64,000 bases of DNA from Anaerosomatales bacterium (GCA_030019445.1 JASEEU010000003.1:62001-126000); one strand, 5' to 3'; counted from the stretch's first letter, positions 17,771 to 61,670 are shown. The notes: generated from the sequence alone by a model not told the origin. Numbers and translations: made by a program.

Positions 17771-17845
17771 TGGGGCGTAGCCAAGTGGCAAGGCAGGGGA
17801 CTTTGGATCCTCTATTCGTAGGTTCGAATCCTACCGCCCCAGCCA
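17771..17845 (+). tRNA. tRNA-Gln (anticodon TTG)
   Basis: A complete cloverleaf. The 7-bp acceptor TGGGGCG/CGCCCCA is perfect, the D arm is GCC/GGC, and the anticodon stem GGGGA/TCCTC closes the loop CTTTGGA with TTG at positions 34-36. The T arm is GTAGG-TTCGAAT-CCTAC. The 3' end GCCA includes an encoded CCA. It lies between spoVG and glmU. Confidence 0.96.
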
Positions 17846-26774: not shown

Positions 26775-26809
26775 TATACTGGCGTCGGCCGTTGCCGATG
26801 GTCGGCAAC
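26775..26809 (+). promoter_or_regulatory. -10 box and perfect palindrome before the LytTR regulator
   Basis: TATACT at 26775-26780 without a clear -35. Just after the likely start of transcription lies the inverted repeat GTTGCCGA-TGG-TCGGCAAC (26791-26809), 8-bp arms around 3 bases. As DNA it could be an operator; as RNA it would form a tight hairpin 52 bases before the start codon. Confidence 0.55.
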
Positions 26810-26860
26810 ATGGGGCGATGAATGGTCGTACAGGCTGCAACAGCACGCTAAGGAGGGATC

Positions 26861-27604
26861 ATGGACGATCCCATCAACGTCCTCGTCGTCGACGACGACG
26901 TCTCCATCCAGGAGATGATCCGCATGGGGCTTGAGGCCGACGGCATGCGGGTCCTTGATGCGGGAGACGGAGCCGAGGCGCTCGAAGTGCTCGAGCGGGA
27001 GCCCGTGGACGTCGTGCTGCTCGACATCATGATGCCGCGGGTGGACGGCTGGATGGCGCTCATGGAGATCCGCAACAACCCGCTCACCGCGGACATCCCC
27101 GTCATCATGCTCACCGCCAAGACGCAGGATCTCGCCAAGATCCTCGCGTTCAAGCAGGGCGTGCAGCAGTACGTGACCAAGCCGTTCAACCTCATGGAGC
27201 TCTCCGCGCGGGTGCGCAGCCTCGTCAAGAGCCGTCCGCGTGCGGCCCACATCGGCGATGGCGAGGAGTCCGGGTTCCGCAAGCTCGCCGTTCGCAAAGG
27301 CGGGCGCACGGTGCTGCTGAACATGGACGACATCGTGTTCATCTCGGCCAAGAACAAGTCCACCTACGTGCACACCTACGAGAACCAGTATCTCGTGGAC
27401 CTCACGCTCTCCGACCTCGAAGAGAAGCTCTCCAAAGACACCTTCCAGCGCGTGCACCGGAGCTACATGATCAACCTCAACAAGGTGAAAGAGATCCTGC
27501 GCGTCGACGGGGCGTACGTCGTGGTCGTGACCGATCGGGACGAGACGCAGATCCCTGTGGCGCGCCGGCAGGTGAAGTCGTTCAGAGAGTCGGTCGGGAT
27601 CTGA
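26861..27604 (+). CDS. Response regulator with LytTR DNA-binding domain
   Basis: A 247-residue response regulator. The receiver domain (about 1-125) has the acidic pocket Asp11-13, phosphoacceptor Asp55 in 'VVLLDIMMPRVDGW', Thr85 and Lys107 ('VTKPFNLMEL'). The C-terminal LytTR domain (about 140-247) shows 'VLLNMDDIVFISAKNKSTYV' and 'RVHRSYMINLNKVKEI'. LytTR regulators often control secreted and envelope factors. AAGGAGGG precedes the ATG. The stop overlaps the next start by one base. No histidine kinase is adjacent. Confidence 0.93.
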   Translation: MDDPINVLVVDDDVSIQEMIRMGLEADGMRVLDAGDGAEALEVLEREPVDVVLLDIMMPRVDGWMALMEIRNNPLTADIPVIMLTAKTQDLAKILAFKQGVQQYVTKPFNLMELSARVRSLVKSRPRAAHIGDGEESGFRKLAVRKGGRTVLLNMDDIVFISAKNKSTYVHTYENQYLVDLTLSDLEEKLSKDTFQRVHRSYMINLNKVKEILRVDGAYVVVVTDRDETQIPVARRQVKSFRESVGI

Positions 27605-28701
27605 TGCGGCTCCGGGGGCTCCTCGGACCGCTCATCGCGCTTGCCGCTGTCGCGGCCGTCCTCGCCGTGCCCGGTGTCGCATACGCCGTGCGTACGCTCG
27701 GCCTGTCCACGGGCACGTTCGAGTTCAACATGGCCGCGGGTCAGGAGGGCCAGGGCGACCTGCTCGTGCTCAACGACGGCGACGAGCCGCTTCGCGTGCT
27801 CGTGTACGCCGCGAACCAGGTCGTCGGCGAGGACGGCGAGATCACCTACCAGATGCCGACGCGCGACGACCGCAACCCTGTCGAGAATCCCGCGTCGTGG
27901 CTCAACGTGCGCATCCCGAGCTCCACCGAGACGCTCGGCAACATCCCGGTGATCGACCTGGAGCCGGGCGATCGCGTTCCGGTGGAGTTCTCGTTCACGG
28001 TCCCCGAGGGCGTGCCGCCCGGAGATCACCAGATCCTGCTCTTCTTCGAGATGCTCGAAGAAGGCCAGTCGTTCGAGGGGAGCGGCGCCACCGTCGCGGG
28101 CCGTCTCGGCGCCCGCATCCGCGTGCGCGTGCAGGGCGACCTGGTCGAGCGTGTCGAAGTCCAGCCGTTCAGCGTCCGCGAGTTCGTCATCGGGTCGAAG
28201 ATGCCCTACGTCTTCCTCGTGCGGAACGGCGGCAACATCGACAAGATCATCAACGCGCGGCTCGCGCTGCTCGACGGGAGCGATGCCGAGGTCTGGGCAA
28301 GCCAGCCGGCCACTGACACCACCGTGTTCGCCGGCTCCAACATGGAGCGTTCGGGCGTGGTGGACCTTCCGGTCTCTTTCGGGAAGTACACCGCGCGCCT
28401 GACGGTCGAGTACCCGCGTGAGGGCAGCGATTCGGGGGTGCCGGAGCAGATCGTCGAGGAGCGCACCGTCTGGGTCGTGCCGCTCTGGCTCGCCATCGGC
28501 GTGGTCGTGCTTATCGGCGGCGTCCTGCTCTACGGCTCATGGCGCCAGGCCGTCCGGGTGGCGGAGCGCAAGGCGCGCAAGGAGCGCATCGCCGCGCGTG
28601 CGGCGCGGCGGCACTCGCCCGAGCACGATGAGCTCGCGGACATCCACCTGGAGGACGCGGGGCTGCTGCCCGATCACGACACCGAGAAGCCCGCCGAGTA
28701 G
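27604..28701 (+). CDS. Membrane-anchored surface protein resembling WxL-interacting DUF916 proteins
   Basis: A 365-residue exported protein: signal peptide (about 1-27, 'VPGVAYA'), two beta-rich domains, one membrane segment near residues 295-317 ('WLAIGVVVLIGGVLLYGSW') and a basic cytoplasmic tail of about 45 residues. The first domain ('FEFNMAAGQEGQGDLLVLN', 'SWLNVRIPSSTETLGNIPVI', 'PEGVPPGDHQILLFFEM') resembles DUF916, the second DUF3324, the pair found in Firmicutes proteins that bind peptidoglycan and WxL proteins. Coupling to the LytTR regulator and the three secreted proteins opposite suggest one surface system. Family call is by resemblance only. Confidence 0.72.
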   Translation: MRLRGLLGPLIALAAVAAVLAVPGVAYAVRTLGLSTGTFEFNMAAGQEGQGDLLVLNDGDEPLRVLVYAANQVVGEDGEITYQMPTRDDRNPVENPASWLNVRIPSSTETLGNIPVIDLEPGDRVPVEFSFTVPEGVPPGDHQILLFFEMLEEGQSFEGSGATVAGRLGARIRVRVQGDLVERVEVQPFSVREFVIGSKMPYVFLVRNGGNIDKIINARLALLDGSDAEVWASQPATDTTVFAGSNMERSGVVDLPVSFGKYTARLTVEYPREGSDSGVPEQIVEERTVWVVPLWLAIGVVVLIGGVLLYGSWRQAVRVAERKARKERIAARAARRHSPEHDELADIHLEDAGLLPDHDTEKPAE

Positions 28702-28716
28702 GCTCGACGGGCTTCT
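28685..28716. terminator. Bidirectional terminator hairpin
   Basis: AGAAGCCCG (28685-28693) pairs with CGGGCTTCT (28708-28716), continued by CGAG/CTCG across one mismatch and a TAGG loop that includes the stop codon of the upstream gene. It separates convergent genes and could serve both strands; the T-rich tail is only moderate. Confidence 0.6.
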
Positions 28717-28749
28717 GCTTCACCGCGCCGGACGGTGTGAGGAAGCTTC

Positions 28750-29040
28750 TCAGGGCTCGGAGATCACCACCCAGTAGGCGAGCGTGTCATCCGGCAGCTC
28801 GACGAGGGTGCCCTGCGTCTTGAGGCCCTGGTGGTTGATGGCGCCCGTCGGAGTGTCGATGGTGAGCGCCCACGGCGTGTTGGCCTGGACGAGCAGAGCG
28901 CCATCTGCGGGGGTGACCTTCACCCGGGGGAGCACGGTCGCCTCGACGGTCACCGTGCCGCCGGCGGCCGACGCCAGCGCGGGAACGGCGAGCGCCAGCA
29001 CGAGCGCCATCGCGATGCTGATGACGGCTGCACGCTTCAT
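28750..29040 (-). CDS. Small secreted beta protein (short member of the local family)
   Basis: A 96-residue exported protein with a signal peptide (about 1-25, 'VPALASA'). The mature part 'GTVTVEATVLPRVKVTPADG' and 'LLVQANTPWALTIDTPTG' aligns by eye with the mature starts of the two proteins encoded further along the same strand ('VTVSATVNPRIQLSLTS' and 'LNVRSNTDYTIT'), but it lacks their DFGT-LLP segment. No cysteine, no sortase motif, no membrane anchor. Function unknown; GGGAGGTGGG precedes the ATG. Confidence 0.78.
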   Translation of the reverse strand: MKRAAVISIAMALVLALAVPALASAAGGTVTVEATVLPRVKVTPADGALLVQANTPWALTIDTPTGAINHQGLKTQGTLVELPDDTLAYWVVISEP

Positions 29041-29308
29041 CGTCCCACCTCCCGTCCGGCTGCCTTGCTATACCGTTTATCGGTAGCCGAACGGCAGAAA
29101 CTAGTGACGGATGGGCGAAATCCGTCCACTAAGGGACGGACGGCGGTACCATGGCGCACTGAGGCGACCGTTCAGCCGTCATAGGCGTGATGAGAAGCAC
29201 GAAGTGAATGCCGAGCGGTCGGACGCGCGCCGGGCCACGAGCGGGTCTCGCGCTGCTCATCGGGAAGCGTCAGCGGTCGCTTCGGGGTGCGACGCTGGGA
29301 GGCGCACG
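29041..29308 (-). promoter_or_regulatory. Gene-free leader region with two mutually exclusive hairpins
   Basis: No convincing gene lies in this 268-base stretch. Read on the minus strand it is the leader of the 96-residue protein gene. TCCGTCC/GGACGGA (arms 29134-29140 and 29121-29127) and GACGGAT/ATCCGTC (arms 29120-29126 and 29106-29112) share the same middle bases, so only one can form at a time. A TATAGC box (29070-29075 on the minus strand) lies nearer the gene. An attenuator or operator array is possible but unproven. Confidence 0.35.
29072..29095. promoter_or_regulatory. LytTR-box-like sites before the 96-residue protein gene
   Basis: ACCGTTTAT at 29072-29080 (+) matches the published LytTR half-site pattern [TA][AC][CA]GTTN[AG][TG] at every position, and GCCGTTCGG on the minus strand (29087-29095) matches 8 of 9. 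The pair is inverted, whereas known LytTR sites are usually direct repeats, so this is tentative. Confidence 0.3.
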
Positions 29309-29343
29309 AAAAAGACCCACCCGGGCGAATGCCCGGGTGGGTC
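29309..29343 (-). terminator. Strong intrinsic terminator
   Basis: A perfect 13-bp stem (29314-29326 with 29331-29343, loop of 4) followed on the minus strand by five Ts (AAAAA at 29309-29313). It ends the transcript of the 140-residue secreted protein gene, so that gene and the 96-residue gene are separate transcripts. Confidence 0.92.
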
Positions 29344-29384
29344 TCCGAGGTCCGGTGGGGCTTCGCCCACCCGCCGGCGCGGCG

Positions 29385-29807
29385 TTACTGGACCACGGTG
29401 TACACGTAGTCGGCCGTGTAGCTGCCGGGATCGGTGGTCCACGGGACGTTGATCGAGTAGTCGTCCGTGTGGTCCTGTCCGGCGGCGGCCGGAGCCTTCG
29501 GCTGCGATGCGCTCAGCGGCACGCCGCTGATGCTCAGGCCGAGGAGCGTCGCCAGATCGTCTCCGGTGGCGGCGCGGGTGATCGTGTAGTCGGTGTTCGA
29601 GCGGACGTTCAGCGTGGTGCTCAGGGTGGCGGTATCCTCGGGAAGGACGGTGCCGAAGTCGAGCGCGGTGCTGGTGAGCGAGAGCTGGATCCGCGGGTTG
29701 ACGGTCGCGCTCACGGTCACGGGGTTGCTGTCCACGGCGTAGGCGTAGGCCACGATCCCCAGCACCATCGACAGCACGACGGCTGCGATGATCATGGTCT
29801 TCTTCAT
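29385..29807 (-). CDS. Secreted beta protein with DFGTVLP motif
   Basis: A 140-residue exported protein with signal peptide (about 1-24, 'VAYAYA'). The mature part has 'VTVSATVNPRIQLSLTSTAL', 'DFGTVLPED', 'LNVRSNTDYTITRAATGDDL', 'GLSISGV' and ends 'GSYTADYVYTVVQ'. The final strand pattern recalls the last strand of WxL domains, but no W-x-L is present. It is clearly related to the C-terminal half of the protein encoded next on the same strand. ATG at 29807 has AGGAGGAAG upstream; the longer open frame is not used. A strong terminator follows, so it is probably an abundant single-gene transcript. Confidence 0.82.
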   Translation of the reverse strand: MKKTMIIAAVVLSMVLGIVAYAYAVDSNPVTVSATVNPRIQLSLTSTALDFGTVLPEDTATLSTTLNVRSNTDYTITRAATGDDLATLLGLSISGVPLSASQPKAPAAAGQDHTDDYSINVPWTTDPGSYTADYVYTVVQ

Positions 29808-30048
29808 GGTTCTTCCTCCTTGATGCTCGGAAACTGTCACGGTCCGTTGGAACTGCGCGCGCCGGCTTGGTTCCTGAATCCGGTATCGGGATGAACCAAC
29901 GTGAACTCCAGGGGGTATCGCCGTACGGCGGAATAGTGTGACAGACGGCACATTCGGGCTTCTGAGCGGGATGAGCGGTCAGGTACGACGATCGCGCGAG
30001 AGGCGCTTGCAGCTGTGCCCGCGCCCCCCACGCGTCCGCACCGGAGCG

Positions 30049-30852
30049 CTACGGGAGGACGGTGTAGACGATGGTGGCGGTCAGGGTGGTCTCGGCGGGC
30101 GTGTACCACGTGGGCGCCACCTGGACCGAGTCGGTGTAGGTCGCCGAGCCGACCGGTTTGACGCCGACGACATCTCCCGTGATCGTCAGTCCGAGGTCGG
30201 CGGCGTCGCCCGCGACGGTGCGGGTCACCTCGCAGGGGACGTTGGAGTCTACGGTCACCTGGATCGGCGCCGCCGGCGGGACCTCGCCGGGCAGCAGGGT
30301 GCCGAAGTCGATGTCCGTGGACGAGACGGTGATGCTGATGACGGGCGCCACGGTGATCGTGTAGTCGCCGATGGGGAGCCGGACCTTGGGCGGTCCCCCG
30401 CCCGTGCGGTCGTAGCTGAACGTCATGTGCTCGGAGGGGTTGGAGGGGTAGGTCCCGAGCGTCGTGGTGTTGGTGACGCCGCCGATCGTGACGGTCACGT
30501 CTGCGCCGGGGCCCAGCCGGGGGGACACTGCGATGACGGCCGAGGTTCCCGTGACGGTCATCGTCCCCGCCGGCTCGACGAGCGTGGCCGATGAGAGGTC
30601 GGTGCCGGCGGGGAACGTGAGCTCGATGGTGTGCAGGGACTGGCCCGCCTCGACCTGGTAGGTGCCGAACGAGTACGTCACGCCGGTCGCCCCGGCGCTC
30701 GTCGTCGACACGCTCGTGGTGGGGCCGGCGCTCACGATCACCGCTGAGGCGATGGAGTCGAACGGCACGAGCAGCGCGAGCATCAGCGCGCACAGCATCG
30801 TTGCGAGCGCTCGGCTCGCTCGTCGCCGGTATGCGGGTCCTGCGGACAGCAC
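30049..30852 (-). CDS. Larger secreted beta protein with DFGTLLPGE motif
   Basis: A 267-residue exported protein. GTG at 30852 with GGGAG 6 bases upstream gives a basic head and hydrophobic core ('LATMLCALMLALLVPF') ending near 'SIASA'. The N-terminal half is a Thr/Ser/Gly-rich beta domain with no family I recognise. The C-terminal half ('VISITVSSTDIDFGTLLPGE', 'VTVDSNVP', 'TRTVAGDAADLGLTITGD', ending 'TATIVYTVLP') parallels the 140-residue neighbour. One cysteine. An upstream GTG at 30912 would add 20 residues but has a poor binding site. Function unknown; envelope role inferred. Confidence 0.75.
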   Translation of the reverse strand: MLSAGPAYRRRASRALATMLCALMLALLVPFDSIASAVIVSAGPTTSVSTTSAGATGVTYSFGTYQVEAGQSLHTIELTFPAGTDLSSATLVEPAGTMTVTGTSAVIAVSPRLGPGADVTVTIGGVTNTTTLGTYPSNPSEHMTFSYDRTGGGPPKVRLPIGDYTITVAPVISITVSSTDIDFGTLLPGEVPPAAPIQVTVDSNVPCEVTRTVAGDAADLGLTITGDVVGVKPVGSATYTDSVQVAPTWYTPAETTLTATIVYTVLP

Positions 30853-30954
30853 TCGTGGCTCCCTGCTCCGACCGCTCGTCACGTTACGGTGATGACGGGC
30901 ACATTCTTCCACATCTTACATCGGCATGTGACGCCAGATGATTGATTCTGAACG

Positions 30955-30963
30955 ACGAACGGT
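30955..30963 (-). promoter_or_regulatory. LytTR-box-like site upstream of the 267-residue protein gene
   Basis: On the minus strand ACCGTTCGT fits every position of the LytTR half-site pattern, about 100 bases upstream of the start codon. A single short degenerate match; chance is not excluded. The rest of the 199-base gap (30853-31051) shows only GC-rich partial inverted repeats. Confidence 0.28.
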
Positions 30964-31051: not shown

Positions 31052-32416
31052 CTAGTTGCGCAGGCTGCCGAGCGGGGCAGGGAAGCGTCCGCCACGGCGC
31101 GCGAGGACGGTCCCGGCGTGCGGGTTCACCGAGAGGACCGGCGCGCCGCCGAGCAGCCCGCCGAAGTCGACGCGGTCGCCGGGTCCGAGCCCCGGAGCCG
31201 GTATGAGCCGGGCGGCGGTGGTCTTGTTGTTGATGACGCCGATGGCGCAGGCATCCGAGATGATCGTGGCGATCGTCTCGGCGGGAGTGTCGCCCGGCAC
31301 GGGGATCATGTCGAGGCCGACCGAGCACACGGCGGTCATCGCCTCGAGCTTCTCGAGCGTGAGCGCTCCCTCGGCCACCGCGCGGACCATGCCGGCGTCC
31401 TCGGAGACCGGGATGAACGCGCCCGAGAGCCCGCCGACGGAGCTCGTGCCCATGGCGCCGCCCTTCTTGACCGCGTCGTTGAGCAGGGCGAGCGCCGTGG
31501 TCGTGCCGGGTCCGCCGCACCGGCCGACGCCGATGGCCTCGATGATGTCGGCGACGCTGTCGCCCTCTGCGGGCGTCGGCGCGAGCGAGAGGTCGACGAT
31601 GCCCATCTCCACGCCGAGGCGGCGCGCCGTCTCACGGGCGACGAGCTCGCCGGCGCGGGTGATCTTGAAGGCGGTCGCCTTGATGGCCTCGGCCACCTCG
31701 GTCAGTCCGGCGTCTTCCGGCAGCGACCGGACGACCGCGCGCACGACACCCGGGCCGGAGATGCCGACGTTGATGACGGCGTCCGCCTCGCCGGAGCCGT
31801 GCATGGCACCGGCCATGAACGGGTTGTCCTCGACCATGTTGCAGAAGACGACGAGCTTGGCGCAGCCGATGCCCTGGCGCTCGGCGGTGGCCTCGGCGGT
31901 CAGTTTGATGACCTCGGCCATGCGCATGACCGCATCCATGTTGATGCCCGCGCGCGTGCTGGCCACGTTCACCGATGAGCAGACGCGCTCGGTCGTCGCG
32001 AGCGCGGACGGCACGGAGTCCATGAGCTTGCGGTCGCCGGCGCCGATGCCTTTGTGGACGAGCGCCGAGAAGCCCCCGATGAAGTCGACGCCCACGTCGA
32101 TCGCCGCGCGGTCCATCGCGACCGCGACGGGCGTGAGGTCGTGCTCGCGACAGGCGGCGATATCGGCGATGGGCGTGACCGCGATGCGCTTGTTGATGAT
32201 CGGGATGCCGTATTCCCGCTCGATGGACTCGGCCACCGGGACGAGGCGCTCGGCGGCGGTCGTGACACGCTCGTAGACCCGCGACGCCATCGTGTCGGCG
32301 TCATCGGCCACGCAATCAGAGAGCGAGATGCCAAGCGTCACCGTGCGGATGTCGAGGTGCTGCTGGGTGATCATCGTCAGCGTCTCGGCGATCTCCTCCG
32401 GGCTGATGTGCAGCAT
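31052..32416 (-). CDS. UPF0210 / PFL family protein
   Basis: A 454-residue cytoplasmic protein of the DUF711 (UPF0210, 'PFL') family, structurally linked to the glycyl-radical/pyruvate-formate-lyase fold by annotation, but with no established reaction. Typical stretches are '[12 protein letters not shown]', '[14 protein letters not shown]', '[13 protein letters not shown]' and '[13 protein letters not shown]' at the C-terminus. It follows the ACT-domain gene by 9 bases, the standard UPF0237-UPF0210 pair. Confidence 0.92.
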
Positions 32417-53437: not shown

Positions 53438-53514
<77 letters not shown>

Positions 53515-61465: not shown

Positions 61466-61483
61466 GGGCGGCGACAACCGAAC

Positions 61484-61596
61484 ACGGACCTCGGGTGCCC
61501 GACATCGTCGGGAGAATAGGGAAGCCGGTGCAAGTCCGGCACGGACCCGCCACTGTGACGGAGGCTCGCGCCTCCGAAGTCAGGAGACCTGCCCGG
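61484..61596 (+). promoter_or_regulatory. Cobalamin (AdoCbl-type) riboswitch
   Basis: Classic conserved blocks in the right order: GGTGCC (61494-61499), AGGGAAGCCGGTG (61518-61530), CAAGTCCGGCACGGACCCGC (61531-61550) with CCACTGTGA (61550-61558), a hairpin CGGAGGC/GCCTCCG and the B12-box-end 'AAGTCAGGAGACCTGCC' (61577-61593). It precedes the corrinoid transport genes and is followed by a terminator, so ligand binding should switch the operon off. Confidence 0.95.
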
Positions 61597-61670
61597 GATC
61601 TGCGATGCGGCCTTCGAGGAAAAGAGGCACGCCCGCCGCGCTCGTGCGCGATCCGGCAGACCGATCTTCG

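Follow-up and report, generated by a model that had tools for sequence, protein, structure and literature searches.

Gene clusters for WxL proteins have been investigated in gut Firmicutes for their part in host attachment and virulence; more than 91% of the known sequences are found there (PMC9772566), and a host-binding domain has been proposed. Those of Lactobacillales and Bacillales combine small and large WxL-type proteins with a WxLIP, a protein made of DUF916, DUF3324 and a transmembrane (TM) segment whose helix has been proposed to insert into the host membrane (PMC10599100). Here we analysed a 64,000-nucleotide stretch of an Anaerosomatales bacterium (GCA_030019445.1 JASEEU010000003.1:62001-126000; hereafter the window), in which one gene for a membrane anchor and three for exported proteins stand between a LytTR response regulator gene and a DUF711 gene (Table 1). 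An earlier note on this DNA had put the locus forward as an undescribed surface system; its kind is already known, namely the WxL cluster, and what the window holds is a diverged, previously unnoticed version in which the small, large and WxLIP make-up is intact. We consider it probable that the anchor and secreted genes together make up a far-diverged WxL-WxLIP cassette for surface display, which works by lending strands and is controlled by the LytTR regulator. The computed support consists of homology to WxLIPs, remote homology to WxL domains, all-or-none linkage, conservation across the order, motif enrichment and membrane topology.

The membrane anchor

The anchor has a signal peptide, a first immunoglobulin (Ig)-like domain (about residues 31-151, DUF916/PGBD-like), a second (about 164-292), one TM segment (about 291-313) and a basic tail. 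Its AlphaFold2 (AF2) model (mean pLDDT 87.6) consists of two beta-sandwich Ig-like domains and one TM helix, which in the model spans residues 294-336. By sequence, the window's protein matches the DUF916 model PF06030 weakly (E 0.0038; 17.7-19.9 bits against a cut-off of 27.3), as the earlier note had anticipated; 27 of the 33 members of the anchor family match the same model, and three orthologues pass the cut-off (34.0, 31.4 and 30.3 bits). A profile of the family aligned with actinobacterial WxLIPs that adjoin PF13731 WxL genes at 99.8% (hhalign, E 4.6e-30, 266 columns), and the alignment covers both Ig-like domains and the TM segment, the same extent of homology that is seen with the Lactobacillales and Bacillales clusters. 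Structural comparison with Foldseek returned the 2026 WxLIP structures 9i25 (9i25_C, WxL bound, E 5e-9) and 9i1y, together with the chaperone-usher chaperones CfaA (E ~5e-9, TMt 0.60), CsuC and FimC; by the CfaA match, the model has the two-domain Ig chaperone fold of the periplasmic type. The anchor is a full-length WxLIP homologue, with DUF916, a second Ig domain and a TM segment.

In 32 of the 33 family members the tail past the TM segment is more basic than the segment ahead of it. The anchor therefore sits in the cell's own membrane, and these positive-inside tails argue against insertion of the WxLIP helix into a host membrane. The lineage is free-living, subsurface and without an animal host, in contrast to the carriers of the Firmicutes clusters, and a host-binding role of the second anchor domain is therefore unlikely.

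Variants of the gene were seen in relatives. In L065 (7359-8326), G001 and G032 it is split into two frames or carries an in-frame stop, through either decay or assembly error, and one genome (G005, contig C32; L062:7462-8364) encodes a further, distant WxLIP-like protein that lies outside the cassette, flanked by genes for proteins of 409 and 246 residues.

The secreted proteins and their link to WxL domains

The three exported proteins (96, 140 and 267 residues) are encoded convergently with the anchor, and their proposed kinship was borne out by profile-profile comparison far above chance (98.0-98.8%, E 2e-13 to 5e-17). The family of the 96-residue protein (A3) aligned with that of the 140-residue protein (A2) at 98.0%, and the C-terminal 100 residues of the 267-residue protein did so at 98.8% (E 5e-17). 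The latter protein thus comprises a variable N-terminal domain and a C-terminal domain of the 140-residue type. In relatives its slot is often held by proteins of about 830-890 residues (A5), alike in the C-terminal domain (98.7%) and very unlike in the N-terminal region, which there consists of FixG_C/MG2/NPCBM-like Ig repeats. As in the Lactobacillales and Bacillales clusters, large proteins end in a copy of the small-protein domain, here a remote WxL homologue. One further 863-residue exported protein (L035:10782-13373) has an IDGDLSDW-type start as in the large subunits and is encoded divergently upstream of the LytTR gene.

The 140-residue protein has a signal peptide, an N-terminal extension (VTVSATV), a six-stranded body and a C-terminal YTVVQ. 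Searches of Pfam, NCBIfam and PDB sequences with single members did not place the secreted proteins in any family with confidence. The subunits carry no sortase sorting signal; the sortase genes are located elsewhere in the genome. Nor did the subunits show a recognisable wall-binding domain, whether lysin-type or other. The earlier note had also reported that no W-x-L motif is present. This holds for the 140- and 267-residue proteins at the corresponding site, where the former reads Y-T-I; the 96-residue protein does carry one, W57-A-L59, with W57 in 18/18 and L59 in 16/18 family members. Of the two motifs of a WxL domain, then, the first is kept in the 96-residue protein, and Y-T-I or YTV-like sites stand in the other two. 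Tiny exported proteins of 70-80 residues adjoin WxLIP genes in other classes (Table 1) and resemble the 96-residue family, mostly in the N-terminal strand and the 'SN' region.

Direct comparison of the A2, A3 and A4 profiles with the WxL profile gave little signal. A phylum-wide search with the 140-residue family, though, led to longer relatives (A8) in other actinobacterial classes, and in 13 of the 14 loci that were fetched the A8 subunit adjoins a WxLIP-type gene amid unrelated neighbours; the fourteenth locus ends at a contig edge, and the subunit positions in L169 and L174 were taken from the phylum-wide search. A8 aligned with A2 at 99.6% and with true WxL domains at 96.4% (E 1.4e-9, 137 columns); in the second alignment a conserved A8 tryptophan falls near the WxL tryptophan and PGTYTATHTYTV lies on the WxL C-terminal strand. 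A2 and A8 pooled reached 95.3% against WxL. As a control, 60 column-shuffled WxL profiles scored at most 16, compared with 62 for A8 and 46 for A2, and unrelated Ig families scored 24-34 over short stretches only. The subunits are thus remote WxL homologues, linked through the A8 intermediates, and we call them WxL-like because they have neither a PF13731 match nor the double motif. With WxL-like proteins accepted, the locus has the gene make-up of a WxL cluster, with WxLIP, small and large genes adjacent.

That PF13731 matches none of the 35 subunit-family members, and nothing in the genomes of 61 relatives (Coriobacteriia and other actinobacterial metagenome-assembled genomes), would be expected if a chaperone-usher-like module had arisen convergently, with no WxL kinship. 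We regard such a re-invention, which the earlier note had offered beside divergence, as very unlikely: the anchor is a WxLIP homologue, A8 bridges the subunits to WxL and the shuffled controls score far lower. Far divergence of a WxL-type module in actinobacteria is the half of that proposal that stands. Other Actinomycetota pairs (L145, L151, L155) likewise have a WxLIP adjoining a small secreted protein; they differ in that the WxL protein passes the PF13731 cut-off, has an intact WxL domain of about 190 residues and stands among other neighbours. Relative to the Firmicutes clusters, the cassette has mostly lost W-x-L (one is left in the 96-residue protein), PF13731 and DUF3324 are not recognised in it and it is flanked by a LytTR gene. 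In two loci (L150:5894-7822 and L154:8719-11145) a large WxL-type protein beside a WxLIP has a calcineurin-like phosphoesterase, made up of a purple acid phosphatase N-domain and Metallophos, before its WxL-like C-terminus.

Distribution and inheritance

The anchor is present in 41 of the 61 relatives (43 of the 69 genomes of the order) and the 140-residue profile has matches in 42; in a class-wide search of 248 genomes all 43 subunit matches were confined to that order. Anchor and subunit occur together in 39 relatives, the anchor alone in 2, the subunit alone in 3 and neither in 17 (Fisher p 3e-10), the discordant cases including contigs that end inside the locus (e.g., G005). Where the LytTR and DUF711 genes lie on one contig (35 loci), the cassette is present in 24, absent in 11 and partial in none. 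Filled loci hold 1.7-6.1 kb, each with the anchor and at least one subunit, and in empty loci the LytTR gene directly adjoins the DUF711 gene (gap -4 to 46 bp). This all-or-none presence marks the cassette as one functional unit, gained or lost as a whole. Unlinked anchor and secreted genes in related genomes, which the earlier note had named as a refutation, were not seen; they were always together.

Its inclusion of the regulator in the module fared differently. A LytTR orthologue is found in 53 of the 61 relatives, those lacking the cassette included, with 68-88% identity in most relatives, and the regulator gene is a fixed neighbour rather than a module gene. In L060 (2286-3688) the 5' part of this gene is duplicated in tandem (205 and 258 residues with identical starts), a duplication that is either real or an assembly artefact.

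Regulation

The regulator is an orphan, with no adjacent kinase gene; it has an intact receiver (PF00072, E 2e-27) and a LytTR domain (PF04397, E 8e-27), and its TGA shares one base with the anchor's ATG at position 27604, in agreement with the coupling described in the earlier note. Such translational coupling, along with known pairs of LytTR and membrane proteins (PMC6193735), could speak for a role of the anchor in the membrane as sensor for, or inhibitor of, the regulator, with the secreted genes incidental. We think this highly improbable, since the regulator has a receiver of its own and persists without the anchor, and since anchor and subunit genes stay linked, including in other classes that lack this regulator. 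A LytTR sensor pair was rejected on the retention of the regulator where the anchor is absent.

Related loci totalling 692 kb contain 161 copies of the sequence CCGTTYRT, and 83 of these sites fall in the 21 kb (3.1%) of regulator and secreted-gene promoter regions, where 4.9 are expected by length. This is an enrichment of about 17-fold, and none of 200 permuted motifs attained 83. The motif resembles LytTR half-sites, and same-strand pairs at 20-21 bp recur, which accords with the 9-bp repeats at 10-13 bp spacing reported for LytTR sites (PMC11347149). In the window, ACCGTTYRTC has two sites only, ahead of the 96- and 267-residue genes. Sites also precede the regulator gene, at loci without the cassette as well, and suggest autoregulation. 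The LytTR regulator is the probable controller of the cassette; it would bind ACCGTTYRTC repeats, both in the secreted-gene promoters and in the promoter of its own gene, direct binding being predicted.

Assembly and its alternatives

In the AF2 model of the 140-residue protein (pLDDT 85.7) there are six body strands, and VTVSATV (residues 30-36) lies outside any strand. Residues 30, 32, 34 and 36 are V, V, A and V in nearly all 35 family members, and in the large proteins the homologous domain begins past the VTVSATV-type segment, the same pattern as in tip adhesins. Donor-strand pilins dominate the Foldseek matches of this model (TLP-1, CfaB, FimF and the PapG pilin domain), TasA being listed as well. 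The chaperone-like anchor and these subunit traits suggest strand complementation at the membrane, which may lead either to a short fibre or to a display complex bound to the wall.

By the mechanism that we propose, all subunits would exit the cell as unfolded chains. The anchor, which would face outwards from the cytoplasmic membrane and keep its basic tail on the cytoplasmic side, would lend a beta strand to the Ig-like WxL-type domain of the subunits and so catch and stabilise it, in the manner proposed for WxLIP-WxL and used by chaperone-usher chaperones. The 140-residue subunits might then join each other, or the wall, through the alternating N-terminal extension as donor strand, and the large subunit (267 residues; ~890 at most in relatives) would expose its variable N-terminal domain, either at the tip or on the outside. 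The 96-residue mini-subunit, with strand, W-x-L and truncated body, may cap or seat the chain. Strand exchange, polymerisation and the capping role are steps that we infer.

Several results weigh against a far-diverged WxL-WxLIP cassette. By sequence, no DUF3324 model recognises the second domain of the anchor (Pfam, anchor family); that domain is still covered by the hhalign alignment to full-length WxLIPs and by the two-domain Foldseek alignment. The 140- and 267-residue subunits have neither a PF13731 match nor paired W-x-L motifs, and A2 alone meets the WxL profile solely over its last 35 columns, at the C-terminus. Foldseek gave no match of the 140-residue subunit at E <= 0.001, and the motif counts pool related promoters.

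It is quite possible that the cassette builds no filament, and that WxL-like subunits bind peptidoglycan and the WxLIP and display the large protein in a wall-bound adhesin complex. This is the published model for Firmicutes WxL clusters (PMC10599100) and would suit the WxL and WxLIP homology and the one or few small subunits per locus. The strong donor-strand-like N-terminal extension, the pilin-like fold matches, the up to three subunit paralogues in tandem (L046, L166) and the lack of a recognised wall-binding domain all argue the other way. They lead to a possible, tentatively held alternative, a pilus needing neither sortase nor usher, in which a donor-strand polymer of the 140-residue subunit forms a thin fibre tipped by the large protein. 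The tip-like large protein (a variable N-domain and a subunit domain lacking the extension) and the chaperone-like anchor would fit it, as would the Foldseek matches to chaperone-usher pilins and TasA, although the fold matches are weak. Thin, pili-like appendages have been described in Anaerosoma tenue and Parvivirga hydrogeniphila, cultured members of the same lineage with a Gram-positive wall, in Parvivirga only with ferrihydrite, and the paper names no pilin (PMC9686372). Their candidate genomes (G008 and G012) both carry the cassette. However, all 13 genomes tested, these two included, have type IV pilus or Tad-type ATPases, which could account for the appendages; that the cassette makes them is for this reason offered as a hypothesis.

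Known fibre systems share part of this design. Chaperone-usher pili (CfaA/CfaB, CsuC/CsuA, FimC/FimA) have the chaperone fold of the anchor and a tip-like large subunit, and the 140-residue protein may share their subunit body one strand short with an alternating N-terminal extension; the cassette differs in its monoderm cell and membrane-tethered anchor, and sequence homology between the two is not demonstrated. In a Gram-positive bacterium, TasA/TapA build a fibre whose Ig-like subunits are joined by donor strands (PMC10151520), as proposed here, whereas they have no WxLIP-type partner and the fold match is weak (8aur, E 0.11). The NCBIfam 'Pam pilus system' of CPR bacteria (NF058581, NF058579) gave a weak match in the C-terminal strand region (E 0.004). 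Identity with it was rejected (17 bits against a cut-off of 55; 4 of 35 family members match, so that the match was not reproduced across the family), and a literature search found no paper on this system.

A wider idea, which we hold to be rather unlikely, is that monoderms have a widespread counterpart of chaperone-usher pili, with WxLIPs as its membrane-tethered chaperones and WxL-type domains as its donor-strand pilins; the cassette would be a form that has lost the W-x-L wall motif and in which fibre assembly dominates, and would make the Anaerosoma and Parvivirga appendages. A diverged yet complete WxL-WxLIP cluster in deep-subsurface actinobacteria argues for an older core function other than host binding, for a dispensable W-x-L motif and for a TM helix in the bacterium's own membrane, not the host's. 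With natural presence and absence at one locus, a candidate motif and cultured relatives, the assembly question is directly testable.

Other features of the window

Rfam matches near 29310-29420 were sub-threshold and were set aside as the signal of the terminator hairpin listed in Table 1.

Table 1. Features of the locus (positions within the 64-kb window unless a locus handle is given)
Feature	Position	Strand	Basis or remark
Receiver + LytTR response regulator, 247 residues	26861..27604	+	PF00072, PF04397; fixed flanking gene
WxLIP-type membrane anchor, 365 residues	27604..28701	+	AF2 model, Foldseek, hhalign, positive-inside tail
Exported mini-subunit, 96 residues, N-terminal VTVEATV strand and W-A-L	28750..29040	-	A3 family, hhalign
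LytTR-like site ACCGTTTATC, 33 bp 5' of the 96-residue gene	29072..29081	+	Motif match and enrichment
Probable intrinsic terminator of the 140-residue gene, GACCCACCCGGGC-GAAT-GCCCGGGTGGGTC then T-rich	29310..29344	-	Direct reading of sequence
Exported WxL-like/pilin-like subunit, 140 residues	29385..29807	-	AF2 model; family in relatives; A8/WxL links
Conserved promoter-region element of the 140-residue gene, GTGCCGTCTGTCACACTATTCCGCCGTACGGC, with degenerate LytTR-like site	29920..29951	-	~12 relatives share the element
Exported large subunit, 267 residues	30049..30852	-	hhalign of C-terminal 100 residues; A5 equivalent
LytTR-like site ACCGTTCGTC, 5' of the 267-residue gene, ~100 bp from GTG at 30852	30954..30963	-	
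DUF711 gene, fixed downstream flank	31052..32416	-	PF05167, E 1e-182
Tiny exported proteins	L166:10936-11148, L172:6438-6680, L173:7178-7408, L177:4789-5001, L178:6991-7233, L179:9602-9844		

Elsewhere in the window, a cobalamin riboswitch (RF00174, 85.5 bits) lies at 61476-61610 (+), and Rfam matches place tRNA genes at 17771-17842 and 53438-53511.

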